A stretch of 64,000 bases of DNA, from the NCBI GenBank assembly GCA_025936825.1, contig JAICSO010000015.1, forward strand, positions 1-64,000, in the 5' to 3' direction. This document shows, in pieces, positions 13,419 to 56,529 of this stretch. The notes beneath the pieces were generated by a model. It saw only the letters and a list, made by a program, of their open reading frames with translations. It was not told the DNA's origin and made no database searches. Position 1 is the stretch's first letter; the number at the start of each line of letters is the position of its first letter. This DNA is from Terriglobales bacterium (GTDB lineage: Bacteria; Acidobacteriota; Terriglobia; Terriglobales; Acidobacteriaceae). The position numbers and the translations under genes were made by a program.

Positions 13419-14942
13419 CTACGGCCCCACGCCCCCGGTGTGGCAATCGGCGCAGGTCACTTGCGTCAGATCGCCGATATCGACCGGGTGTTGAAACACG
13501 CCCGGACTCGCCACCATTTGCTTAGTGGTGTCAGTTTGCGCCAGGACGGTGTGGCAGGTGTTGCAGTCCTTGGGAATGACCTTGCCTTCCGGACTCACAT
13601 GCTGTCCATCGTGGCAACGGAAGCAGCCGCTGGAGTAGAGGTGCCCGATGTTATTGGGATGCGTTTGCCAGTTCAGCTTCATCTCCGGGAACGTTGTACG
13701 CTGGTAGACACGCTGCACTTCCTCGACCGCATTGCGGATGTCGAGTTGCCGCGTCTTGGCCAGGTCCGGATAACTCTTCTCGTAGTAGCTCTGCACTGAG
13801 TTCGCAATCCCTTGCACCGCTTCGTTGGTGGTCTTATATGAGGCGGTGAGTGCGGCCACCGCTTGTTGCTTGATGAACGGCAGCGACGCATCGATTTTGT
13901 GCCCCAGCAGCGCCTGATCAACCGCCTGGTCCGGCGGCACATACACGTGCGTGGGGCGATTGTGACAGTCGATGCAATCCATGCGGTGGCGTGGCGCCTT
14001 GGCGATCTGGTCTTTGGTCAGCTTGGAATCCGAAGCATAGTATTCCGTCACGCGGCCTTGCAGGTCCTGAACATGAATATAGGGGATGACCTGGCGTTGT
14101 TCGTCCGCGGCAACGTAATCGATGCGGTTGCCGATGTTCATGTGCCAGTGAATTCCTTCGGGCGCTCCAGTCGCGGGATCTCCGCCGCCGGTTTTCAACA
14201 GCAACTGCGTCTCCCGCACAGTGTTCTTCTCATCGCTGGAATAGTGTGTGAACACCTTCAACTGCGCGCCATAGAACTTTCTTGGCCAATGACACTCTTC
14301 GCAAGTGTCCTGGGCCGGGCGCAAATTGTGTACCGGAGTTGGAATCGGCCGAGGATACGTGTTGAACGCCGTGGCGAAAACCTGCCGCAAGCCCGACATC
14401 TTCGATTTCACATACCAGGTCGCACCCGCTCCGACGTGGCACTCCACGCATGCAACACGCGCGTGCGATGAAAGCTGATAAGCCGTGTACTCAGGGTGCA
14501 TTACGCCGTGGCAGGTCTGCCCGCAAAACTGTACCGAATCGGTATATTCATAGGCCTTGTAACTTCCTGCCATGCTGATGAGAACGAACACAACCAGAAA
14601 CGTGAGCAATCCAAACACGGTTGCGCGCTGGCGCGGATCATTTAAATCGATTCGAGGATAGGACGATTGTCCGTGCGCCGCTTTCAGACGATCGCGCCAG
14701 TAGCCGACCCCGATCAACACAAAAGAAAAAATCAGGAACCCCGGTGCGATCATGTAGGCCAGAATGCCCACGTAGGGGTTCGGCCGCACCGAAATCATGT
14801 CAATGATCGTGAAGACCACGATGTTGCCGACGGCCACCACGGCCAGCATCAGTCCAGCCTGGCTGATCAGGTTTCGTGGGAAAAAGCGCATCCACCGGGA
14901 TGCGCCCGGAGCATTGGAGTTCGTCGCGTCGTCAGTATTCAT
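13419..14942 (-). CDS. Seven-haem NapC/NirT-like membrane cytochrome c
   Basis: A 507-residue protein with three membrane helices in the first 140 residues (AGLMLAVVAVGNIVVF, YMIAPGFLIFSFVLIG, FGLLTFLVVFVLISMAG), followed by a periplasmic domain with seven CxxCH sites: CGQTCH, CVECH, CEECH, CIDCH, CFRCH, CNTCH and CADCH. The first part (SVQFCGQTCHGVMHPEYTAYQLSSHARVACVECHVG) is NapC/NirT-like, a family that takes electrons from quinol. It is the last gene of the five-gene electron-transfer operon, 3 bp after the 11-haem/cytochrome b gene. Inferred role: quinol oxidation at the inner membrane and delivery to periplasmic haems. Confidence 0.88.
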   Translation of the reverse strand: MNTDDATNSNAPGASRWMRFFPRNLISQAGLMLAVVAVGNIVVFTIIDMISVRPNPYVGILAYMIAPGFLIFSFVLIGVGYWRDRLKAAHGQSSYPRIDLNDPRQRATVFGLLTFLVVFVLISMAGSYKAYEYTDSVQFCGQTCHGVMHPEYTAYQLSSHARVACVECHVGAGATWYVKSKMSGLRQVFATAFNTYPRPIPTPVHNLRPAQDTCEECHWPRKFYGAQLKVFTHYSSDEKNTVRETQLLLKTGGGDPATGAPEGIHWHMNIGNRIDYVAADEQRQVIPYIHVQDLQGRVTEYYASDSKLTKDQIAKAPRHRMDCIDCHNRPTHVYVPPDQAVDQALLGHKIDASLPFIKQQAVAALTASYKTTNEAVQGIANSVQSYYEKSYPDLAKTRQLDIRNAVEEVQRVYQRTTFPEMKLNWQTHPNNIGHLYSSGCFRCHDGQHVSPEGKVIPKDCNTCHTVLAQTDTTKQMVASPGVFQHPVDIGDLTQVTCADCHTGGVGP

Positions 14943-14945
14943 GAT

Positions 14946-16877
14946 TTATGAAGTAGGACCGCCTTCAGGATTTTGTCCTGCCACATTGGGATCGAGAGGA
15001 TGAGCTTCCCGATAATGACTTAAGGGCATTTTCCCGTCCCACCACGACCAATTCATGTTGTGCGCTTCGTGATGGAAGAACACATGGTAGAAGTGCCAGA
15101 CCAAAATGGCCAGCGTCGCGAGCACCGCTTCGTAAAAGTGGATGGCAGTCGCAACATCCAGGAACCAGCGCGGCAGCAGGTTGCCAAAAAATACCTTCGC
15201 CCACAGCATGGTCCCGGTCACGCCCATGATGATGGTCCCCCACAGCAGCGCCCAATACTCGGCCTTCTCGGCGTAGCTGAACCTGCCGAAGAGCGGCCCG
15301 CGCTTGGTCTTCCCCACATGAAACAAGACGTTGGCCTGCATCGCGGTCAGGTCGTCAAGGCTGGGGAGCATATCACGGACCAGGCTTCTGCCTTCGCGCC
15401 AGACGAAGAGATACATGAGGTGATAAATACCGGAACCGATCAGCACAGCGCCGGCGATGCGGTGCACGATGCTGCGGACGCGTTCGCTCATCCCCAGCGC
15501 CGCGGCAAAGCCGGAATCTGGATACTTTAGCGCGAAGCCGGTGATCACAAGAACAAAGAAGCTGATAAGCAAGGTCCAATGCTGCCAGCGCTGGTTGCGC
15601 GTCATGCGCTCCACTTGAGGTTCGCCTTGACGACGCTCGTGCAGCGCCGCCCAGCGCCAGACCAGCAGGTTGTGCAGCAGCATGCCGCCGATCACGAACA
15701 GGATCGTCATCAAGTAGAAGCGTCGCACCCAACGCACACCGAGGCTGCCTCTATCTTCCGAGATGGCTTGGTCAACATGGACCTTAGCGGCGACGAATTT
15801 TGCCGTCACTCCCGGATGGCACTTGCCGCAAGTCGCAACCAAATTCGCCTGGTTGATCGTTGAGCGCTGATCACTCGACGGCAGGATGTTGTGCGCGCCA
15901 TGACAACTGGCGCAGTTTGCTACCACGGCGGAGCCAAGTTGCGAAGCTAATCCGTGATAGCTGGCCAGATACGTTTTCGCTTTGCGCGAATCGAAGCCAA
16001 ATTCTCTGGAAAGACGCACGCTCTCATGGCAGTGCGCGCAAGTCGCCTGGGCGAGATTCTGCGCCGACACCGCTGAATTTGGATCTCCCTTGGACTTGAT
16101 GGCGTGAATCCCGTGACAATCGGTGCACACGGGCGCTTGCCAGTCACCGCGCGCGATCGCCTGGCCATGAATGCTGGTCACGAATTGCTGCTTCACGCCG
16201 TCATGGCATTTGCCGCAGGTTGTTGGCACGTTGAACTTGAAGATGGACGACTTGGCATCCGACGCGGGAAGAATTTCGTGCGAACCGTGGCAGTCAGTGC
16301 AAACTGCAGCTCCGTTCTGTCCGGCAGCCACCGCGTGCCCGTGCACACTGTCCTGGTAAGCAACGAACGGCTGAGTGCTCAGGCCGCTGGTCTCCATGAC
16401 GAACTTTTGCCCGTGGCAGGTGCCGCAGGTCTTCGGGATGTTGGCGTGATTGACCTTCGAATTGGCATCGCTGGCGGGCAACAACTCGTGTGGACTGCCG
16501 TGGCAATCAACACACGACGCCGCATTCTTATTTCCCGCCGCGATCGCTTTCGCATGCAGGCTGCGATCGTAGATCGCTTGCTGGTCCTGGTGACACTGCG
16601 CACAGTTCACCTTCGCAGGCGTCGCCTCGTGCATGGAATTCTTGATGTCGGTGTGGCAATCCACGCAAGAGAACATGCTTCCGTGGATCGAAGCTTTGAA
16701 TTTCTCCGGAGAGACATAGAGACTGAGTGGCTTGCCGCCGACTTCCTTGCTGAGCGTGGCATCTCCGTGGCAAGCCAGACAATCGTCGTTCGTGGGCTTC
16801 TGCGCAGCCCACGCCCCAAATGAAAACGCAATGAAGATCAGCAGAACACCGGACGCGCGGCTCTCCGCCTTCTTCAT
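14946..16877 (-). CDS. Fusion of an 11-haem cytochrome c and a cytochrome b561-type membrane domain
   Basis: A 643-residue protein with a signal peptide (residues 1-25) and eleven CxxCH motifs between about residues 35 and 360 (CLACH, CVDCH, CAQCH, CVDCH, CGTCH, CTDCH, CGKCH, CTDCH, CAHCH, CASCH, CGKCH). The repeated pattern HGSxHEILPASDxxS between haems suggests internal duplication. From about residue 395 there are four membrane helices with His ligands (MTILFVIGGMLLHNLLVWRW, WTLLISFFVLVITGFAL, HLMYLFVW, LVWHFYHVFFHHEAHN), as in b561/hydrogenase cytochrome b subunits. The single chain can thus join the quinone pool to a periplasmic haem wire. It sits 12 bp after a monohaem cytochrome gene. 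Confidence 0.88.
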   Translation of the reverse strand: MKKAESRASGVLLIFIAFSFGAWAAQKPTNDDCLACHGDATLSKEVGGKPLSLYVSPEKFKASIHGSMFSCVDCHTDIKNSMHEATPAKVNCAQCHQDQQAIYDRSLHAKAIAAGNKNAASCVDCHGSPHELLPASDANSKVNHANIPKTCGTCHGQKFVMETSGLSTQPFVAYQDSVHGHAVAAGQNGAAVCTDCHGSHEILPASDAKSSIFKFNVPTTCGKCHDGVKQQFVTSIHGQAIARGDWQAPVCTDCHGIHAIKSKGDPNSAVSAQNLAQATCAHCHESVRLSREFGFDSRKAKTYLASYHGLASQLGSAVVANCASCHGAHNILPSSDQRSTINQANLVATCGKCHPGVTAKFVAAKVHVDQAISEDRGSLGVRWVRRFYLMTILFVIGGMLLHNLLVWRWAALHERRQGEPQVERMTRNQRWQHWTLLISFFVLVITGFALKYPDSGFAAALGMSERVRSIVHRIAGAVLIGSGIYHLMYLFVWREGRSLVRDMLPSLDDLTAMQANVLFHVGKTKRGPLFGRFSYAEKAEYWALLWGTIIMGVTGTMLWAKVFFGNLLPRWFLDVATAIHFYEAVLATLAILVWHFYHVFFHHEAHNMNWSWWDGKMPLSHYREAHPLDPNVAGQNPEGGPTS

Positions 16878-16889
16878 TGAAGTATCAAA

Positions 16890-17228
16890 CTACTTTCCTT
16901 TACCGAGCTGCCGAATATAAGCGACCAAGCCCTTGATATCGGACTCCTGCAGCTTGCCCGCGTACGCTGGCATTTTGTTCTTGCCCTTGGTGATGACATC
17001 GGTCAGTTCCGCATCCGACATCTTCTGTACATCAGCGGAGGTGAAGTCGTGGACACCCATCTTCTGTCCGACGGCGCTTCCCTTGCCGTCGGCTCCATGA
17101 CACATGGCGCACTTTGCTTTGAAGGTGGCGGCGTCATCAGCCGATGCCGTTGTGCTCAGGATCCCGACACCTGCCACTAATACCGCTACCATCGCTAGTC
17201 GAACCAGAACCGCTTTTGCGCTGACCAT
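16890..17228 (-). CDS. Monohaem class I cytochrome c
   Basis: A 112-residue periplasmic protein with a signal peptide (about 1-30, AMVAVLVAGVGILSTTASA), one CAMCH haem site near residue 41 with the following GADGKGSAVGQ, and a Met ligand in KMPAYAGKL near residue 87. This is the compact layout of small soluble class I cytochromes that shuttle electrons between larger partners. A GGAGGA ribosome site precedes the start. It lies between the MtrB-like barrel gene and the 11-haem/cytochrome b gene, so it probably carries electrons across the periplasm within this system. Confidence 0.92.
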   Translation of the reverse strand: MVSAKAVLVRLAMVAVLVAGVGILSTTASADDAATFKAKCAMCHGADGKGSAVGQKMGVHDFTSADVQKMSDAELTDVITKGKNKMPAYAGKLQESDIKGLVAYIRQLGKGK

Positions 17229-17307: not shown

Positions 17308-19806
17308 CTAGAAGCTATATTCCAGCGTTGCTGCCACGTAGTGCGCATGGTAAGACGGCTGGTCCGCCCCCATAAACAGAAATCTCGCTGCGCTGGTGTC
17401 TCCTACAACGAAGTACGGATAGAACGGACTCGGTGTGCCGATCAGCGGACTTGTGCAACCGGGCACCGGCGCACCTACAATTCCGCTAACGCACCCCATG
17501 TACGGCGTCATAGGGCTCGTCTGATAATCCTTGTTGTCGAACTGCTGGTATCGATATTCGAGCTTTGGTGTCACGTTCTTCGTCAACTTGTAACGGAAGG
17601 TCGCAACCAGTTCGTGCGTGCGGCTCACGGTCTCTGGATAGTTCACTGCCGCATTCGTGCCTGTCAGCAAGAATTTGTCAGGACCTGTGGTGACTGTCGG
17701 ATCTCCGAATGGCCGGCTGTCCACATGCCCCTTCGCCGCAGAAAGCGAATAGTAAGCGTTGAAGTTCGCCTTCTTGCTCAGGTGAGCGTCCAAGCCGCTG
17801 GCGTAGATGTGAACATAATCGCGCGAATTGCTTCCCCAGTCGTTGTTTGCGCTGTCGCAACCCTGGCTCGATGCGCTGCAGTCGAGAGGCGTGGGATTGG
17901 CGCCATTCCCGGGTACGCGATATCGCGTCGCCATCGCCTTGTAATAGCGTTCGTAGGAATACTCCGCGAACAATGTAATGCTGTTCGTCAGGTTGAAATC
18001 GCTATCGAAGCCCGCGTTGTAAGAAAGGTCTTTCAGCAGCCCATAAAGGTAATACGGATACATCGTACCGGAGACGAAATTCAGCGGCCCCGGGCTGTTG
18101 ACTCCGCCGCGCCGGTTGAAATTGTCTTGCGTTGTCCCGGCGAAACCAGTGAAGCTCAAGCGATCAGTCATGTCGTACATTAACTGCACATCACCGCGAT
18201 CGCGAATGCGGCCTTCTTCATCAAAGCGCCGGCTCCAGATCTGGTCGCCGGTGATGCCCCCGGAAATCGAATCCGTGCCCGCATTGTCGTCGGCGTAGGC
18301 TTCCGGATCGCGCACTGAATGTCGGTATGACGCGCGCAGCGAGAGATCTTTGCGCAGTTCGGTGTCGACGGCGGCGACGAATCCGTTTTCCACCGAGTGT
18401 GCAACATCACGCTGTGAGCGGTCCATAATTTCGCCTTCATACCCGATCTTGGCGGTGCTCTTCTTTGCGAAATACCAGTTGCCGGTGACTTCAATGCTCT
18501 TGCGGTTATAACCCCAATTGGTGTTCTGATCGGGGCTCGTTGGATCTGGCGCACCAAAATCCCCCTGTACCGTTGTGAGGTTGAGGATGGGAGTGTGGTT
18601 CTCGTAGTCGTATTGCCGGTAGCCAGCCTTGATCTCAAACTTCTTGCCGATGCCCTGGATCAGCTTGTAATTCATGGCAAGCGTCCGCTTGTCACCGTGC
18701 GCGTTGGCGGCGGGCAAGGGAGTCGTCAAACTTTCGAGTATTGAGTTGGTTGTGTAAGGCATGAAGGGATCGTCCTGGTGCAACCAGCCGGCAGTGATAC
18801 TGGCCAGCAAGCGCAAATGCTTCATGAGAAGGAAAGATCCCGCAAAGCTTAAATAGTGAGCCCGATTATCCGGATAGAGATCTGCTCGGCCCAATGCTGG
18901 ACCTTGAGTGGCATTCGTGCAGCCATTCGGAGCCACGCAATCGGTGGTCACAAATGGATTGTCAAAAGTCAAAGTGCCGGTGTGGTTGTGAAAGAAGGAC
19001 CCGGTATAACCGCCTTGCACCGCGAACCGGTGCCCAACGTATTCCGCACGGAACCTGGTGACGTCGGTGAAGTAATTAATCGGCTCCGGCAACTCCACGC
19101 CATAGCCGCCACTCAACGACGCGCTCGGGCTGGAATTGAAAATCATTCCAATCGGCCGAAAGCCGGATTCGTGCTCGCGCCGGTACGAGGCCATCAAGTC
19201 TAGGTTCTCATTTACGTCATAGGCCAGCAGAATATCTCCCGCGCGGCGCAAAATTGCGGGAGTGAAGAAACTCATTCCCGGCACCACCTGCGTTTGAATC
19301 GTACTGGGCAGACTTGTCGATGACGCGAGGCTCTGTAAAGCAGTCCGCGTAACTAGTGGCATGGTGAAAACACCGGGCGCAGTTTCGGTGTAGAGAGTGC
19401 GCGTGGTGTTCGAATAAGTGTGCGGAATCTCGTCGAAACGGAACTGCAACTTGAAGCGGTTCCACTGGCCGAAAGTCGCAAGATAACTCTGGTCGCGGTA
19501 GATTGCCTTATCCGACTGGAAGTCCAGGTAGTATTTCGAATCGATATTGTCCCAGTTCAGACGCGCTCTGGGGATAAAGAACCCGTCCCGGATGTCGCGG
19601 TATTCTTCATACTTCGAGGTCCGCAGCGAGGGTTTGAAGGAAAGGTCGGGACGTCCGTAAACATCTCCCCAGATCGCCCGCGTCCCGAACTCGACAAATC
19701 CGCCCTGATCAGGATTCTTGGGAGCTTCCGGAGTTTTCTCCTGGCTGAATACTATCGACGTCAGCAGGAGCGTGAGCAGCAGAAACAAGCTTTTCGTAGT
19801 TTTCAT
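17308..19806 (-). CDS. MtrB/PioB-family outer-membrane beta-barrel
   Basis: An 832-residue protein. The ATG at 19806 is chosen for its GAGGAGAG ribosome site and the signal peptide MKTTKSLFLLLTLLLTSIVFSQ. The mature protein is made of alternating amphipathic strands with aromatic girdles (for example KYYLDFQSDKAIYRDQSY, ITLFAEYSYERYYKA) and ends in LEYSF, the terminal Phe expected by the BAM machinery. Length and strand density fit a large barrel of the MtrB/PioB decahaem-associated family, which sheathes a decahaem cytochrome across the outer membrane. The gene starts 13 bp after its partner cytochrome gene, the usual MtrA-MtrB pairing. Confidence 0.88.
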   Translation of the reverse strand: MKTTKSLFLLLTLLLTSIVFSQEKTPEAPKNPDQGGFVEFGTRAIWGDVYGRPDLSFKPSLRTSKYEEYRDIRDGFFIPRARLNWDNIDSKYYLDFQSDKAIYRDQSYLATFGQWNRFKLQFRFDEIPHTYSNTTRTLYTETAPGVFTMPLVTRTALQSLASSTSLPSTIQTQVVPGMSFFTPAILRRAGDILLAYDVNENLDLMASYRREHESGFRPIGMIFNSSPSASLSGGYGVELPEPINYFTDVTRFRAEYVGHRFAVQGGYTGSFFHNHTGTLTFDNPFVTTDCVAPNGCTNATQGPALGRADLYPDNRAHYLSFAGSFLLMKHLRLLASITAGWLHQDDPFMPYTTNSILESLTTPLPAANAHGDKRTLAMNYKLIQGIGKKFEIKAGYRQYDYENHTPILNLTTVQGDFGAPDPTSPDQNTNWGYNRKSIEVTGNWYFAKKSTAKIGYEGEIMDRSQRDVAHSVENGFVAAVDTELRKDLSLRASYRHSVRDPEAYADDNAGTDSISGGITGDQIWSRRFDEEGRIRDRGDVQLMYDMTDRLSFTGFAGTTQDNFNRRGGVNSPGPLNFVSGTMYPYYLYGLLKDLSYNAGFDSDFNLTNSITLFAEYSYERYYKAMATRYRVPGNGANPTPLDCSASSQGCDSANNDWGSNSRDYVHIYASGLDAHLSKKANFNAYYSLSAAKGHVDSRPFGDPTVTTGPDKFLLTGTNAAVNYPETVSRTHELVATFRYKLTKNVTPKLEYRYQQFDNKDYQTSPMTPYMGCVSGIVGAPVPGCTSPLIGTPSPFYPYFVVGDTSAARFLFMGADQPSYHAHYVAATLEYSF

Positions 19807-19819
19807 CGCTCTCTCCTCG

Positions 19820-20821
19820 CTAACGCAAAAACGCATTGCCCGACGGATGATTGGATCCGTGGATCTGGGAATGGCAGTTTGTGCATCCCCGGTTGAAATT
19901 CTTGATGGAACTCAGCGGCTGTGCCTGCGTGGGGTGACGGCTCGCGTCGTGGCAGGAGTCGCACACCCGCGGCATACGTACTTTCAGTAGCTCAGGATTG
20001 CTGCTGCCATGCGGATCATGGCAATTGGCGCAGTTCTCCATCACCGGCGGATGCTCCCACAAGAACGGGCCGCGGCGCTCGGTGTGGCATGAATAGCAAT
20101 TCTCGTTCACTGTGGCTTGGAGCAGTTGCGCCGGATTGGGGCTGCCATGCGGATTATGGCAACTGGTGCAGGTGACCTTACCCTCCCGATAAGGCATGTG
20201 GGACGAGCGCTGCAATTGCGCTCTCCGCATCTGGTGGCACTGCAGGCACAGCTCCGGCTGCGTCTTCTTCGTGCCCACGTGCTCGGTTAATGGTTGACCA
20301 TAGCGGGCTTCCTTGGAAGGAAGGTTCTCCATGGCCACATACCGCTCGGCGACGCTTCCGTAATGCACTTGGTGGCAGTCAACGCACGCCATCGCTCGCG
20401 ATTCGTGCGCACTGCCTGTCCAGAACATCTGGTTGCCCTTGTTGTGGCAGGAAAGGCAAGTGGCATTGCGGTCTTCGACAGGAGTATTGGAGTCCTTGGT
20501 AAAGCGGACTGGAATCGTGTCCTTGCCGCCACCGGCGTCCACGTGCGCCTTGCCCGGCCCGTGACAGCCTTCGCAACCAAGTTTCTCTTGCGCCGTCTTC
20601 GGGTGGGCCATCATGGCGTTACCCATGATGGTGTGCTCAAAGCTTTTCCCCTGTTCCGCGTGGCAGGTTACGCAGACTTCACTGCCCACATAATCAGAAC
20701 CGGGATTCGGGGTATCGCTCTTGGTATCTGGTTTGTTCGCTGCGGTTTGGGACGAGGCGGCAGCAGCCAGAACAATGGCGAGAAATAGATTGCTGGGGAG
20801 TATTTTGAACAGCCCACGCAT
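19820..20821 (-). CDS. DmsE/MtrA-family decahaem cytochrome c
   Basis: A 333-residue exported protein with signal peptide (to about residue 24) and exactly ten CxxCH motifs: CVTCH, CEGCH, CLSCH, CVDCH, CLQCH, CTSCH, CYSCH, CANCH, CDSCH and CTNCH. The spacing and repeated CHNPHGSPNPAQLL / CHDPHGSSNPELL segments are those of the DmsE/MtrA/PioA group, in which the cytochrome threads through an MtrB barrel. A GGAGGATCTTGAGAT ribosome site precedes the ATG. It is the first gene of the electron-transfer operon. A CRP-like site lies about 200 bp upstream. No OmcA/MtrC-type surface cytochrome is encoded nearby. Confidence 0.92.
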   Translation of the reverse strand: MRGLFKILPSNLFLAIVLAAAASSQTAANKPDTKSDTPNPGSDYVGSEVCVTCHAEQGKSFEHTIMGNAMMAHPKTAQEKLGCEGCHGPGKAHVDAGGGKDTIPVRFTKDSNTPVEDRNATCLSCHNKGNQMFWTGSAHESRAMACVDCHQVHYGSVAERYVAMENLPSKEARYGQPLTEHVGTKKTQPELCLQCHQMRRAQLQRSSHMPYREGKVTCTSCHNPHGSPNPAQLLQATVNENCYSCHTERRGPFLWEHPPVMENCANCHDPHGSSNPELLKVRMPRVCDSCHDASRHPTQAQPLSSIKNFNRGCTNCHSQIHGSNHPSGNAFLR

Positions 20822-21022: not shown

Positions 21023-21044
21023 AAATGTGATTCAAATCACATTT
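21023..21044. promoter_or_regulatory. CRP/FNR-family binding site upstream of the mtrAB-like operon
   Basis: The site is AAATGTGAT-N4-ATCACATTT, a perfect 9+9 bp inverted repeat identical in both arms to the E. coli CRP consensus. It lies about 200 bp upstream of the decahaem cytochrome start, in the 307-bp gap after typA. A TTGACA hexamer pointing toward the operon lies at 20987-20992 on the minus strand, with no good -10 partner. Confidence 0.75.
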
Positions 21045-21112
21045 CCCTGAAGTGGCCTGTAATCAACTAGGAATTGCGCCCTGTAGTGGCGCGACTCTAG
21101 CACGCCCGCTGT

Positions 21113-21128
21113 TGTGATTTCAAACACA
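21113..21128. promoter_or_regulatory. Possible second, weaker CRP/FNR-like site
   Basis: TGTGA-N6-ACACA, one mismatch from the TGTGA-N6-TCACA core, directly abutting the typA stop codon and 87 bp (centre to centre) from the perfect site. It could be chance. Confidence 0.3.
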
Positions 21129-22955
21129 TTATGATTCGTCAGCGACGGTGGCTAAGCTGCTCTTTTTGCGGCGGTTAGCAGGTAGGGTCTTCTTCCGCAG
21201 ACGGAGGGATTTAGGCGTTACCTCTACGAATTCGTCGTCGGCGATGAATTCGATCGCTTGTTCGAGATTGAGCTGCCGAAATGGCACCAGCCGGATGGCC
21301 TCATCCGCGGTCGAAGCACGCATGTTGGTGAGCTTCTTCTCGCGCACAACGTTGACGTCGAGATCATTGTCCTTGGCGTTCTCGCCGATGATCATTCCTT
21401 CGTAGACCTCGACGCCTGGGCCGACAAAAAGCTCGCCACGTTCTTGCAAGTTCCAAAGCGAGTACGCGGTTGAGACGCCACCCCGATCGGCTATGAGCGC
21501 ACCTGTCAGACGGTGCGGGATTTCGCCCTGCCACTCGGTGTACCCGTCAAAAAGGGAGTTCATGACGATGGTGCCGCGAGTGTCGGTCAGCAACTGACTG
21601 CGAAGGCCGATCAGTCCGCGGCTAGGAACTCGAAACTCGATGCGCACACGACCATAGCCATGGTTGTGCATGTTGATCATTTCGCTCTTGCGCGCGCCAA
21701 GCTGCTCCATAACGACACCGACGAACTCCTCCGGGATGTCCACCGTAAGCCGCTCAACCGGCTCCATCAGCTTGCCGTCTACACGCTTGGTCACGATCTC
21801 CGGCTTGCCGACCGCTAGTTCATAACCTTCGCGCCGCATCATTTCCAGGAGGATCGAAAGCTGCAGTTCGCCGCGCCCCATCACCTTGAAAGAATCGGTA
21901 CTGCCAGTGTCTTCCACACGTAGTGAAACGTTAGTGAGCAGTTCTTTCTGCAAACGGTCGCGCAGATTACGCGAAGTAACAAACTGCCCTTCCCGGCCCG
22001 CAAACGGCGACGTGTTTACCGTGAACTGCATGGCTATGGTGGGTTCGTCGATGGAGATCGGCGGCAATGGCGCCGGATTCTCAACGTTGGTGATGGTCTC
22101 GCCGATGGTGATGCCCTCGACACCGGCGACGGCGACGATGTCCCCCAGTTCGGTTTCGGTGATGTCGAGCCGCTTTAATCCAGCGAACGAAAAAAGCTTC
22201 GTAATTTTCGTCTTATGAAAGCTGCCATCGAGTTTGGCGATCGCGACTTCCTCGCCAGTTCGCATCGTCCCATTGAAAACCCGTGCGATCGCCAGCCGTC
22301 CGAGGTAGTCGCTGTAATCCAGGTTGGCGACCAAAATTTGCAGACTGCCGCCGGACTCGCCCTTGGGAGGCGGGATGGTATTCACGATGGCCTCGAACAA
22401 TGGCTGCAAGTCGTCCCCGCGGCCAGACTGGTCGGTGCTGGCAGTTCCAGCCTTTGCATTTGTGTACAACACGGGGAAATCAAGCTGATCTTCCTTCGCA
22501 TCCAGGTCAATGAATAAGTCGTAAATCTCGTTCAAGACCTCTTGGGCTCGGGCGTCTGCGCGGTCGATCTTGTTAATCACAACGATAGGCGGCAGTCCCG
22601 CCTCAAGCGCCTTTCCCAGGACATAACGGGTCTGCGGCAGGGGGCCTTCGCTGGCGTCGACCAGCAGCATGACTCCATCGACCATCTTCAGCGCACGCTC
22701 CACTTCGCCGCCGAAATCGCTGTGGCCAGGAGTGTCTACAATGTTGATCTTTATGCCTTTATAGAACAGCGCGGTGTTCTTGGCGAGGATGGTGATCCCA
22801 CGTTCCCGCTCAAGTTCGTTGGAATCCATGACCCGGTCCACGTGAGCTTCGTTGGCCCGAAAAGTTCCGCTCTGTTGGAGCATGGCGTCGACCAGGGTGG
22901 TTTTGCCGTGGTCTACGTGGGCAATTATCGCGATGTTACGAAGGTTGGGGATCAT
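21129..22955 (-). CDS. typA: Translational GTPase TypA/BipA
   Basis: A 608-residue ribosome-associated GTPase. G1 [17 protein letters not shown], switch I ERGITI, G3 [17 protein letters not shown]4 NKIDRADA are all intact, followed by EF-G-like domains and the BipA-specific C-terminus ([12 protein letters not shown]). The ATG at 22955 is preferred over an in-frame GTG 30 bp upstream because of the AAGAAG ribosome site and the family-typical [13 protein letters not shown] start. TypA helps 50S assembly and stress or low-temperature growth. It is monocistronic here, with the electron-transfer operon downstream on the same strand. Confidence 0.96.
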
Positions 22956-23351
22956 TCTATTCTTCTTGGATAGGTTCACTTTCACTTTACTATGCGGCGG
23001 CGACTGCGCCGGGTTCCTGTTTACTCAAGGGCCAAACATGGCACATCGGTGCCATTCCAAATTCGCTTTAATTCACAGATATTACATAACTTACGGGAAC
23101 CATGAAGCAAGCACTGCAGATTCACAGTTTGTGTGCAGCGGATTGCATAGGTCCACAGGAAACCCACGCGAATTACGAAGGTAAGTTGTTTCTCTTCAAT
23201 ACCGTAGCAATTTTCGCACTTTGGTAATGCAGATGCTAAGTAGAAGCTTTAGTCCGCACGAGGATATTGTTGGGAACTGGGCCAGCGGAGGTCAACATGG
23301 TTCCCACAAATCGGTTTCCCCCCAGAGCAACACAACTCGGAGGAGCGTTTT

Positions 23352-23873
23352 ATGAAGAAAGTAGTTTTGTTGGCATTGTTGGCGCTGGCATTGCCCACCG
23401 TGGCGTCTGCCACCACCTATGACATTATTGACGGCGGTTCCGTTGCGCTGGGGGTCGCGAGCCAGTCCGGAACTACGAGCGCGGGAAGCAGCATAACCTT
23501 AACGGCTCCATTGTTGACGCTGAACAGCGTTGCCACCGCTGGAAGTCTGAGCCTGACAACTGGCACGCTGACTGCCACCGGCAATAGCAACGTGTTTGAC
23601 TTCACCGGCGGCACGCTGACCCTGACGGTTGGCAGCAGCACCCTGTTTCAGGGTACGTTTTCTTCAGGAACAGTCACGGTGAACGGTCTGAACGCATTCA
23701 CGATTGTTGGGACGCTCAGCAACGGCGCCGGTTTTATAACCCAAGTTGATACCCACGGGGACGTCACGGGAAGAGGAACGGTGGTTGTCACTCCTGAGCC
23801 CGGCACCCTTGGGCTCCTGGGCACCGGTTTGATCGGACTTGCTGGAATCGTTCGCCGCAAACTGCGCAGATAG
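23352..23873 (+). CDS. PEP-CTERM sorting domain protein
   Basis: A 173-residue secreted protein with a signal peptide (MKKVVLLALLALALPTVASA), a Thr/Ser/Gly-rich beta-type middle (LTLNSVATAGSLSLTTGTL) and a textbook PEP-CTERM tail: TPEPGTLGLLG, a hydrophobic helix and RRKLRR. Such tails are recognised by exosortase (EpsH) and linked to extracellular polysaccharide or biofilm export; no exosortase gene is in this window. GGAGGAG lies 7 bp before the ATG. The gene is monocistronic with a strong terminator. The 396-bp gap upstream (22956-23351) holds no other gene I can support. Confidence 0.93.
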   Translation: MKKVVLLALLALALPTVASATTYDIIDGGSVALGVASQSGTTSAGSSITLTAPLLTLNSVATAGSLSLTTGTLTATGNSNVFDFTGGTLTLTVGSSTLFQGTFSSGTVTVNGLNAFTIVGTLSNGAGFITQVDTHGDVTGRGTVVVTPEPGTLGLLGTGLIGLAGIVRRKLRR

Positions 23874-52710: not shown

Positions 52711-53367
52711 ATGGCACTACTGGAGCGGGTATCAACGTTAATTCGCGCGAATCTCAACGACCTGATCGACAAGGCCGAAGATCCGGAAAAGATGATCAAG
52801 CAGGTGATCCTCGACATGCAGAACCAGCTTCTGCAGGTCAAGACGCAGGTGGCGATCGCCATCGCCGACCAGCACCTGCTGGAAAAGAAGCAGAAGGACA
52901 ACGAAGAAAAGACGGCCGAATGGATGCGCAAGGCCGAGCTCGCCGTCGGCAAGAAGGACGACGACCTGGCGCGCGCCGCATTGCATCGTGTCGAGAGCTA
53001 TCGCGAGCTTTCCGGCAGCTTCACGCAGCAGGTCGCGGACCAGAAGGCCCAGGTCGAGAACCTGAAGACCGCGCTGCGCCAGCTGGAACAGAAGCTCACC
53101 GAAGCGCAGGCCAAGGCTGATCTACTGATCGCGCAGCAGCGCCGCGCCCGCGCCGTCGGCAAGGCTCAGGACGCGCGTTCCGCGATGGGCGACGGCTCGA
53201 AGATTGCCGCGTTCGATCGCATGAAGCACAAGGTTGCGCACAACGAAGCGGTGGCCCAGGCCAAGACCGAGCTCAACGCTGAAGATGTCGACGACCGCTT
53301 CACCGCGATGGAGAAGGCCGACCGCATCGAGGCCCTGCTGGCGGAGCTGAAGGCGAAGAGGGCGTAA
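52711..53367 (+). CDS. pspA: PspA/IM30 family protein
   Basis: A 218-residue, nearly all-helical protein with an AAGGAG site before the ATG. MALLERVSTLIRANLNDLIDKAEDPEKMIKQVILDMQNQL is the amphipathic first helix and PspA signature; a long coiled coil follows (LEKKQKDNEEKTAEWMRKAEL ... LKTALRQLEQKLTEAQAK). PspA/IM30 proteins polymerise as ESCRT-III-like rods on stressed inner membrane and preserve the proton-motive force. Its placement after NfeD and flotillin fits a shared membrane-maintenance module. No pspF, pspB or pspC is present. Confidence 0.95.
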   Translation: MALLERVSTLIRANLNDLIDKAEDPEKMIKQVILDMQNQLLQVKTQVAIAIADQHLLEKKQKDNEEKTAEWMRKAELAVGKKDDDLARAALHRVESYRELSGSFTQQVADQKAQVENLKTALRQLEQKLTEAQAKADLLIAQQRRARAVGKAQDARSAMGDGSKIAAFDRMKHKVAHNEAVAQAKTELNAEDVDDRFTAMEKADRIEALLAELKAKRA

Positions 53368-54780: not shown

Positions 54781-56529
54781 ATGAAGAAATTTTTTCTTAC
54801 ATCTGCACTCGTATTGTTCGCGTCGCTCCTGAGCTTCGCACAGGACATCACGGGCGACTGGAACGGCACCCTCAACACCGGCGCGGGAGAACTGCGGCTT
54901 ATTCTGCACGTCAGCAAAAATTCGGATGGAACGCTTCAATCCATGCTCGACAGCGTTGACCAGGGTGCCAACGGAATCCCGGTTACTTCAACCACGCTGA
55001 AAGACTCGATACTTAACTTGAAAGTTGACGCCGTTAACGGCACCTACGAAGGCAAGGTGAGCGCCGATACCAAGGAGATCGTCGGCACTTGGACGCAAGG
55101 TGCGGGCATGTCGCTAACCTTCCATCGCGGGGGCATTGCGGTGAAACCTGCGCCTAAAGCCGCCAAAGCCTCTGACATCGATGGCGATTGGCTCGGCACC
55201 CTCGATACTGACATGGGAAAGTTGCGCCTGGCGCTGCACATCACCAACACAGATCAGGGGCTAACCGCGACGATGGACAGCTTGGATCAGGGAGCCAACG
55301 GTATGCGGGTCACGAGCGTGACCCGGAATGGGGCGTCCTTGAAGTTCGATATGCAGGCAATCAATGGCGCCTATGACGGGACCATCGGCGCAGACCTGGC
55401 GAGTTTTAGCGGAACGTGGACACAGCTCGGCAAAAGCTGGCCTCTTGAATTTAAACGTGTGAAGGACGCCGCCGAACTCGAGCGCAAGCGCCCCCAGAAT
55501 CCGGTGAGGCCATACCCCTACAAGGAAATGGATGTCATCTACAAGAACCCGAAGGCCAACATCGATCTAGCGGCTACGCTCACCGTTCCCGAAGGCAAAG
55601 GCCCCTTCCCTGCCGTGCTGCTCATGGCGGGAAGCGGGCCGCATGATCGCGACGAAACCCTGATGGGCCACAAACCGTTTCTGGTGCTCGCGGATTATTT
55701 GACGCGCAAAGGCATTGTCGTTCTGCGCGCCGACAAGCGCGGCGTGGGCAGGTCGACGGGCAATTATTCCCAAGCGCTGATGGCCGATTTTGCTTCCGAC
55801 GCTGACGCAGGAGTCGCCTACCTGAAGACAAGGCCTGAAGTTGATCCCAAGCAAATCGGCCTCATCGGCCACAGTGAAGGCGGCCTGGAAGCGCCCATGG
55901 TCGCGGTCCACAATTCGGATGTTGCTTTTGTTGTGATGATGGCCGGACCTGGAGTGAGAGGAGATCAAATTCTCACGGCGCAACAAAAGCTTATCGCGGC
56001 GTCCGTCGGAAAACCTCCGGCTGAAATTGAGAAGGATGCGGTGACGCAGCGCCAGATTTTTGCAATCTTGGCCAAAGATGAAGACGAGTCCGCGAGAGAG
56101 AAAGAACTGCGCGCGGCACTTGCGGGAAGTGTGCCAGAGGCCCAAATTGGAATGCAAATCAAGGTTCTGAACTCGCCCTGGTTTCGTGATTTTGTGAAGT
56201 ACGATCCGGCTCCGACACTGAGCAAGCTCGCCTGTCCCGTGCTGGCGATCAATGGAGAAAAGGACCTTCAGGTCCCGCCGGACCAGAATTTACCCGCGAT
56301 TCGTAAGGCACTCGAATCTGCAGGCAATAAGAACTTCGAAGTCGTGGAGATGCCCGGCCTGAATCATCTTTTTCAGGAGGCAAAAACGGGAGCTATCACG
56401 GAATACTCCGAGATCGAAGAAACCATGTCGCCGGTGGTGATGGAAAAGATTTCCAGTTGGATTCTGACGCAGAGCGGGTCCAAAGCGCCGAAGGTTCCCG
56501 CAAAGTTGGCGAAGGCAGGATCGACTTAA
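54781..56529 (+). CDS. Exported alpha/beta hydrolase with two N-terminal beta repeats
   Basis: A 582-residue protein with GAGG before the ATG and signal peptide MKKFFLTSALVLFASLLSFA. Two lipocalin-like repeats (DITGDWNGTLNTGAGELRLILHV at about 22-115; DIDGDWLGTLDTDMGKLRLALHI at about 130-225) precede a hydrolase domain with the nucleophile elbow LIGHSEGGLEAPM, an acid in NGEKDLQVPP and His in GLNHLFQEA. The fold is that of dienelactone-hydrolase-type or acyl esterases, probably acting in the periplasm on small esters or peptides. The repeats share LDSVDQGANGIPVT / LDQGANGMRVTS, a recent duplication. The gap 56530-56798 after it holds no gene I can support. Confidence 0.82.
   Translation: MKKFFLTSALVLFASLLSFAQDITGDWNGTLNTGAGELRLILHVSKNSDGTLQSMLDSVDQGANGIPVTSTTLKDSILNLKVDAVNGTYEGKVSADTKEIVGTWTQGAGMSLTFHRGGIAVKPAPKAAKASDIDGDWLGTLDTDMGKLRLALHITNTDQGLTATMDSLDQGANGMRVTSVTRNGASLKFDMQAINGAYDGTIGADLASFSGTWTQLGKSWPLEFKRVKDAAELERKRPQNPVRPYPYKEMDVIYKNPKANIDLAATLTVPEGKGPFPAVLLMAGSGPHDRDETLMGHKPFLVLADYLTRKGIVVLRADKRGVGRSTGNYSQALMADFASDADAGVAYLKTRPEVDPKQIGLIGHSEGGLEAPMVAVHNSDVAFVVMMAGPGVRGDQILTAQQKLIAASVGKPPAEIEKDAVTQRQIFAILAKDEDESAREKELRAALAGSVPEAQIGMQIKVLNSPWFRDFVKYDPAPTLSKLACPVLAINGEKDLQVPPDQNLPAIRKALESAGNKNFEVVEMPGLNHLFQEAKTGAITEYSEIEETMSPVVMEKISSWILTQSGSKAPKVPAKLAKAGST

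Follow-up and report, generated by a model that had tools for sequence, protein, structure and literature searches.

Acidobacteria are abundant in soils, and some of them carry Mtr-type electron conduits that could serve metal reduction or iron oxidation. In CRP, TGTGA is read by a recognition helix of the R-E-x-x-x-R type. FNR has a TTGAT-N4-ATCAA site, a V/IETxSR helix and four cysteines that ligate a [4Fe-4S] cluster, the fourth of them at position 122. GlxR and the Mycobacterium CRP bind cAMP and have a TGTGA-type site, and HcpR of sulfate reducers, a non-cAMP CRP/FNR protein linked to nitrosative stress, has a TTGTGA-type palindrome before redox genes.

Control of an Mtr conduit by CRP has been described in Shewanella oneidensis where, according to the passages of PMC4417206 on these genes, CRP with cAMP binds before omcA and mtrC and activates both directly, mtrC having half a CRP motif; the first-pass annotation of the DNA studied here had named this precedent. 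A survey of Mtr systems includes conduits of Acidobacteriia, and its passages on regulation do not treat regulation in Acidobacteriia (PMC8805035). Our search of the open-access literature yielded no paper tying a CRP/FNR regulator to mtr genes in Acidobacteria.

Here we analyze a 64,000-nucleotide stretch of a Terriglobales genome (hereinafter, the window) in which a CRP-type palindrome precedes an mtrAB-type operon. As far as omcA/mtrCAB of S. oneidensis is covered in PMC4417206, the two systems are alike in combining Mtr conduit genes, TGTGA-type DNA and a CRP/FNR-superfamily protein (here, a predicted one). However, the Shewanella system depends on cAMP and has a half motif at mtrC, whereas our search of this genome found a perfect palindrome and no class I or class III adenylate cyclase, and the candidate regulator lacks the cAMP residues of CRP and has four conserved cysteines. 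By description, the predicted system also resembles HcpR in the non-cAMP CRP/FNR protein, the TTGTGA-type palindrome and the redox genes, HcpR being tied to nitrosative stress.

A perfect CRP-type palindrome before an mtrAB-type operon

All genes of the operon are on the minus strand. The first one (19820-20821) encodes a decahaem cytochrome of the MtrA/DmsE family (Pfam match; TIGR03508, 257.6 bits, above cut-off; 10 CxxCH motifs) and adjoins the gene for an outer-membrane barrel of the MtrB/PioB family (17308-19836; PF11854, E 6.3e-73, 246.8 bits, above cut-off; 223.9 bits against TIGR03509, slightly under the cut-off of 240.05), the arrangement that defines an MtrAB/PioAB conduit. These are followed by the genes for a small monohaem cytochrome c (16890-17228; PF13442; one CxxCH), an 11-CxxCH multihaem protein fused to a cytochrome b561-type membrane domain (14946-16877; PF14522 and PF01292), and a NapC/NirT-type membrane-anchored multihaem cytochrome (13419-14942; PF03264; six CxxCH), the presumed quinol link. 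Of the 29 haems originally assigned to this operon, 28 correspond to CxxCH motifs (10 + 1 + 11 + 6), and the last gene additionally contains one motif of the Cx3-4CH type. The upstream neighbor, typA/bipA (21129-22985; PF21018, PF00009), is on the same strand and is not thought to belong to the operon. A small PEP-CTERM protein is encoded at 23352-23873.

The gap between typA and mtrA contains, at 21023-21044, the sequence AAATGTGATTCAAATCACATTT, a perfect CRP-type palindrome (AAATGTGAT-TCAA-ATCACATTT; no strand assigned) and the predicted primary operator. It fits what we take to be the E. coli CRP consensus at all 18 arm positions, with no mismatch, and lies 201 bp 5' of the ATG of the decahaem cytochrome gene (20821, minus strand), a greater distance to the start codon than that seen at 8 of the 10 further mtrA loci in the order. 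With the TGTGA-N6-TCACA core, AAA/TTT flanks and an intergenic location before a gene, it has the sequence features of a CRP-type operator. Across the window, this is the sole match to the consensus at up to three mismatches (18 specified positions scored); dinucleotide shuffling yields a mean of 0.02 matches, with a match in 2 of 100 shuffles. The palindrome is a real observation, and the claim that it exceeds chance expectation is upheld, with one exact match found against the 0.02 expected. The core alone shows no enrichment in the window at up to two mismatches (17 matches, compared with an expectation of 22.2), and therefore we put weight only on near-perfect sites.

A second, weaker predicted operator, TGTGATTTCAAACACA (21113-21128; no strand assigned), has one mismatch in the core; its centre is 87 bp from that of the first palindrome, and it lies immediately 3' of the typA stop codon. 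Scored in the extended form (21111-21130), it shows two mismatches and ranks within the top 15 of the 81 genomic matches. A promoter-like match, TTGAAA-18-TAGAGT (21123-21094), overlaps this second site; in the upstream region of mtrA in the window, we detected no clear promoter at class I or class II spacing from the 21023-21044 site.

Conservation of the site in front of mtrA, proposed as a check along with the original description, is evident within the order. In each of the 10 other mtrA loci (from nine genomes), the 500 bp preceding mtrA include a site with no more than one mismatch, exact in eight; in L199, which is one of them, no in-frame mtrA start codon was detected and the start of the match was used instead, as it also was in L082. 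When the 500 bp upstream of mtrA were scanned for 5-mer inverted repeats with spacers of 0-16 in 11 loci, including that of the window, TGTGA-N6-TCACA ranked first, being exact in 9 of the 11, compared with 3 of 11 for the next best repeat. The genes upstream of the site differ among these loci, and yet the inverted repeat recurs.

Sites across the genome and their neighbor genes

In the genome that includes the window (G000; 6.54 Mb, 99.67% complete), TGTGA-N6-TCACA occurs exactly 38 times, compared with 2 matches of the reversed control; allowing one mismatch raises these numbers to 164 and 62, respectively. For the extended pattern AWTGTGATN4ATCACAWT at up to three mismatches, the numbers are 81 and 3, the reversed control in this case being a pattern that differs in dinucleotide content. 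The 21023-21044 site is one of three extended palindromes with zero mismatches in the entire genome. Among the other 37 exact sites, 26 are outside any ORF of at least 70 amino acids, as delineated by a mechanical ORF caller, and 11 are inside one.

Annotation was performed for the first genes beside selected sites: 30 proteins encoded near exact sites, 10 proteins from the C140 region, and the candidate regulator P0001. On contig C140, genes for an ADP-forming-type acyl-CoA synthetase and hypC-hypD directly follow the sites at 55826 and 66791, respectively, and cydAB directly follows a one-mismatch site at 52797; the site at 81293 is flanked on one side by a universal stress protein gene and on the opposite side by a NuoE-type gene, the first of a NuoF/NiFe-hydrogenase cluster. 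Elsewhere, sites are directly followed by genes for a Fer4 protein (C97:168922), three radical-SAM proteins (C33:14118, C8:82711, C72:82091), and an outer-membrane barrel protein (C45:327800). Housekeeping or unknown genes come after further sites, including those for glycyl-tRNA synthetase, thiamine-phosphate synthase, adenylate kinase, an OPT transporter, a Mg-chelatase-like protein and a recombinase.

Of the best 15 extended palindromes, five are located in front of genes with anaerobic or redox functions (mtrA twice, acyl-CoA synthetase, radical SAM, and hypC). Two more precede an outer-membrane protein gene, one a flavoprotein-like ORF (assigned without a domain scan), and three genes without a Pfam match; one lies between the genes for glycyl-tRNA synthetase and a LigB-type protein, and three are within ORFs. 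Given this mixture of genes beside the best sites, the predicted regulon is enriched in anaerobic genes and is not confined to them, and some of the sites need not be functional.

Tandem palindromes with starts exactly 25 bp apart are present before two separate radical-SAM genes (C33:14093/14118 and C8:82711/82736), and another tandem pair, 60 bp apart, precedes the outer-membrane barrel protein gene (C45:327800/327860). The segment of C140 between 52797 and 81293 (L147, L061, L148) is a 29-kb island with cydAB, the acyl-CoA synthetase gene, hyp genes, a NuoE/F-type NiFe hydrogenase and the regulator, and contains nine sites at up to one mismatch. The FNR-type pattern TTGATN4ATCAA occurs exactly 12 times in the genome, against 0 for its control, so that an FNR-type reader elsewhere in the genome is possible.

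A candidate regulator with four invariant cysteines

The best candidate for the binding protein is P0001 (C140:66848-67555; 236 amino acids), which joins a cNMP-binding-type barrel (PF00027, 57.5 bits) to a Crp-type HTH (PF13545, 66.5 bits; both above cut-off), the domain composition of the CRP/FNR superfamily. Its gene stands amid the C140 sites and is itself preceded by a one-mismatch site; in this genome, it is not linked to mtrA, which is on another contig. The recognition helix of P0001 is RETVSR, and RETV[ST]R is present in all 43 aligned rows (40 distinct), from which three second hits (L183_2, L194_2, L083_2) were left out because their extended frame contained internal stops. Because of this CRP-type R-E pair, P0001 is predicted to read TGTGA. 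Cysteines 13, 16, 25 and 64 are invariant in the same 43 rows (40 distinct); the first three form a C-x2-C-x8-C triad near the N-terminus, and the fourth is in the sensor barrel, presumably, judging from the fold topology, on the strand next to the one that holds the fourth FNR cysteine.

P0001 is similar to FNR, FnrL and Anr in having an N-terminal cysteine triad and a fourth cysteine, and hydrogenase, cytochrome bd and fermentation genes are among its predicted targets. Unlike in those regulators, the site is TGTGA-N6-TCACA rather than TTGAT-N4-ATCAA, and the helix is RETVSR rather than V/IETxSR; the triad spacing differs from that of FNR as well, and the fourth cysteine is at position 64, compared with 122 in FNR. 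Thus, P0001 and its predicted site fall outside FNR proper, as defined by TTGAT-N4-ATCAA specificity and the V/IETxSR helix. We reject FNR-type specificity at 21023-21044 on the strength of the RETVSR helix and the conserved TGTGA-N6-TCACA repeat before mtrA, although TTGATN4ATCAA exceeds its control in the genome. No NCBIfam family matched P0001 above its cut-off (the best was FtrB, 77.9 of 211 bits), and the scores against the FNR and FnrL models were far under the respective cut-offs. An AlphaFold model of P0001, built with a three-row alignment, has a mean pLDDT of 41.6.

The regulator and the site go together across genomes

We sampled 249 genomes of the order and classified them by the presence of a regulator homologue. 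The density of exact palindromes averages 4.0 per Mb in the 69 genomes with a homologue at E ≤ 1e-70, 1.9 in the 108 genomes with a weaker one, and 0.56 in the 72 genomes with none at 1e-40, whereas the control pattern remains at 0.17-0.19 per Mb in all three classes. The Spearman correlation between palindrome density and regulator is 0.74, against -0.01 for the control (249 genomes; uncorrected for shared ancestry). An mtrA gene (E ≤ 1e-60) is present in 10 of the 249 genomes, that of the window included, and all 10 belong to the E ≤ 1e-70 class (p 1.6e-6). Five of the nine other mtrA genomes encode a full-length homologue of the regulator that begins 1.6-2.2 kb upstream of mtrA; in eight, a homologue is found within ~13 kb of mtrA, and in the remaining one (G109) it is on another contig. 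The full-length homologues located close to mtrA in these relatives share 52-61% identity with P0001 and possibly constitute a sister type.

The regulator gene itself tends to be preceded by the site. Among 22 close orthologues (72-100% identical, P0001 included), the upstream site is present at up to one mismatch in 20 and at up to two mismatches in all 22, mostly ~55 bp before the start, which suggests that the regulator would control its own gene; the repeat conserved at this location is of the GTGAT/TGTGA type. In a set of 20 more distant regulator loci, the 300 bp upstream contain a site at up to one mismatch in 10 cases and no site, even at two mismatches, in the other 10. Linkage of the regulator to hydrogenase genes is not general: hypC and hypD are in the flank of 1 of the 22 close-orthologue loci, that of the window's genome, and in none of the 8 others. 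An OsmC-like neighbor is kept in 12 of the 22.

A further set consisted of 17 named mtrA loci from GTDB genomes (in which L080 is the same as L197, and L084 the same as L190). Here, a site with at most one mismatch is present in 5 loci and absent from 12, nine of which lack a close regulator homologue. Partitioned by regulator, the site is found in 5 of 8 loci with a homologue at E ≤ 1e-70 in the genome and in 0 of 9 without it (p 0.009); of these nine, three encode a more remote homologue (1e-46 to 1e-64), and no homologue passes 1e-40 in the other six. After pooling, with the duplicates L080 and L084 dropped and L083 and L192 (74% alike over 200 bp) both kept, 26 mtrA loci show the site in 14 of 17 with the regulator at E ≤ 1e-70 and in 0 of 9 without it (p 7e-5). 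For three loci (L073, L075, L087), a close regulator is encoded in the genome, but the 500 bp preceding mtrA contain no site at up to one mismatch; both Manganitrophus loci (L085, L086) lack the site as well as the regulator. Because the site is absent from 12 of the 17 named loci, control by this site would pertain to a part of the phylum rather than to all acidobacterial mtrA genes.

Proposed mechanism and alternatives

The palindrome most likely is the binding site of a cysteine-bearing CRP/FNR regulator with anaerobic genes among its targets. Taken as a whole, the explanation with an operator, a four-cysteine CRP/FNR factor for which P0001 is the best candidate, and anoxic switching of the mtrAB-type operon is one in which we have considerable confidence, as far as sequence comparison can carry it. 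Under this explanation, the R-E pair of the P0001 helix would read TGTGA palindromes, and the C-x2-C-x8-C triad together with the fourth barrel cysteine would, judging by the conservation of these residues, probably hold an oxygen- or redox-labile Fe-S centre, similarly to FNR. Without oxygen, a dimer of the four-cysteine protein would bind the palindromes and switch the mtrAB-type operon along with hydrogenase, cytochrome bd, fermentation and radical-SAM genes. The bound regulator would activate the operon, and the second site might strengthen or modulate this effect. This scheme suggests that extracellular electron transfer is turned on at oxygen depletion rather than via a Shewanella-like cAMP signal.

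The initial interpretation, which invoked control by a CRP/FNR-family regulator sensing cAMP, oxygen, NO or redox state, is supported with respect to the regulator family. The list of signals narrows, with cAMP disfavored, because class I and class III cyclases were not detected, the cAMP contacts are not kept, four cysteines are invariant, and several strong sites precede anaerobic genes. The data thus support a refinement from cAMP-CRP to an FNR-like cysteine regulator that would read a CRP-type site. We infer that P0001 rather than its paralogue on C34 is the binder, that it holds an Fe-S centre, that the signal is oxygen, and that the operon is activated rather than repressed.

The identity of the binder has to be weighed against a large set of paralogues: matches to the cNMP-binding and HTH_Crp_2 domains number 22 and 19, respectively, some being fragmentary and two of the latter falling below cut-off. 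The search for CRP/FNR homologues with an R-E recognition helix, advised at the outset, recovered five proteins, with the helices RETVSR (C140), RETVTR (C34) and RELVSR (C129, C2, C96). The C34 protein is the second four-cysteine paralogue beside P0001. Binding by this protein or by one of the RELVSR proteins, possibly in response to NO or another redox signal, is an alternative that we consider rather unlikely but would take seriously. The number of paralogues is compatible with it, as is the possibility that the homologues adjacent to mtrA in relatives are a sister type. However, among these proteins it is P0001 whose gene has a site in front of it and lies beside the hydrogenase genes, and the site before the regulator gene is kept in 20 of the 22 close orthologues.

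The regulator could also repress the operon, for example, by occupying 21113-21128 over the promoter-like sequence at 21123-21094. CRP/FNR factors can repress; the TTGAAA-18-TAGAGT match overlaps the second site, and two sites 87 bp apart could permit looping. Nevertheless, we regard repression as unlikely. Activation is favored by the nature of the co-targets, several of which are anaerobic genes that are usually induced without oxygen. In a scan of 11 mtrA loci (L194, which is too short, was left out), a -10-like peak appears 30 bp after the site centre; it is weak (z 2.8, best of 74 offsets) but near class II activation spacing, with which it fits. This peak is not shared by other sites of the genome: a scan of 18 of them did not reproduce it and gave a best offset of 35.

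True cAMP-CRP control as in Shewanella, whereby cAMP from an adenylate cyclase would activate CRP at the site, accords with the match of all 18 arm positions to the presumed E. coli consensus. Nevertheless, there were no matches to PF00211 (class III) or PF01295 (class I) cyclases in the 99.67% complete genome. In alignments with mycobacterial and corynebacterial CRP-type proteins, P0001 lacks the G-E-L and R-T/S residues at what we take to be the cAMP-contact positions (G-E and R-S/T of the phosphate-binding cassette), GDVLGLNATVSNHPYEV being aligned to DMFGELSIFDPGPRTSS of the mycobacterial protein. P0001 scores 43.6 bits against the NCBIfam CRP model, for which the cut-off is 266. Its best PDB sequence matches are GlxR and the Mycobacterium CRP (3r6s, 3h3u and others), which share with it the R-E-T-V helix and have a TGTGA-type site, as predicted for P0001; these proteins bind cAMP, whereas their contact residues are not kept in P0001. 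Despite the precedent of direct activation of omcA and mtrC in the passages of PMC4417206 on these genes, cAMP-CRP thus is highly improbable and is rejected as the main reading, given that no class I or class III cyclase was found and that the contact residues are not kept. A chance or unrelated palindrome, such as a 3' element or terminator of typA, would fit its position 3' of typA on the same strand and the lack of enrichment of the core at up to two mismatches in the window, but has a negligible probability, being ruled out by the shuffles, by the A+T-rich stem at which no terminator was called, and by the recurrence of the same inverted repeat before mtrA across the order despite differing upstream genes.

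Implications and additional observations

A conserved predicted operator and a named candidate regulator tie the conduit to genes of anaerobic life, which argues for the conduit being an anaerobic respiratory outlet. The operator can be used as a marker to predict when the conduit is made, and the analysis provides candidate sites across the order. The predicted system combines the DNA code of CRP with a predicted target set that is in part FNR-like; the comparison suggests that CRP-type control of electron conduits was reached via different signals in Shewanella and in Acidobacteria.

More tentatively, the features described above might be parts of a separate class of anaerobic switch in this order. 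A four-cysteine CRP/FNR protein with the DNA code of CRP and an FNR-like, rewired Fe-S sensor, the fourth ligand being located elsewhere in the barrel, would be a main anaerobic regulator of the order, with a single regulon that spans hydrogenase, cytochrome bd and extracellular electron transfer. Its activity would be tuned, in several genera, by versions of the sensor domain that lack the HTH and are encoded between the regulator and mtrA. This joint reading is speculative, and we would not be surprised to see it fail in part.

Such HTH-less paralogues of the regulator, 145-172 amino acids long and consisting of the sensor domain only, are encoded beside the full-length regulator in several relatives (L190, which is the same as L084 and L184, L191, L192, L193, L185, L186, L188, L189, L195). 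They account for 11 of the 12 second homologue hits (duplicates counted; three more, with internal stops, were dropped). In L190-L193, the HTH-less paralogue lies between the regulator and mtrA. The four cysteines are kept in the HTH-less paralogues of L189, L191, L192 and L193 and not in the other ones. Perhaps, these proteins are modulators that form heterodimers. Finally, nine other CRP/FNR paralogues in the genome of the window (on C60, C56, C28, C81 (two), C85, C126, C140:757428 and C119) have the unusual helix GTTRSRVSFFMNRFRKLGF or one near it (RSRVCHF in C28) and apparently represent an expanded family.
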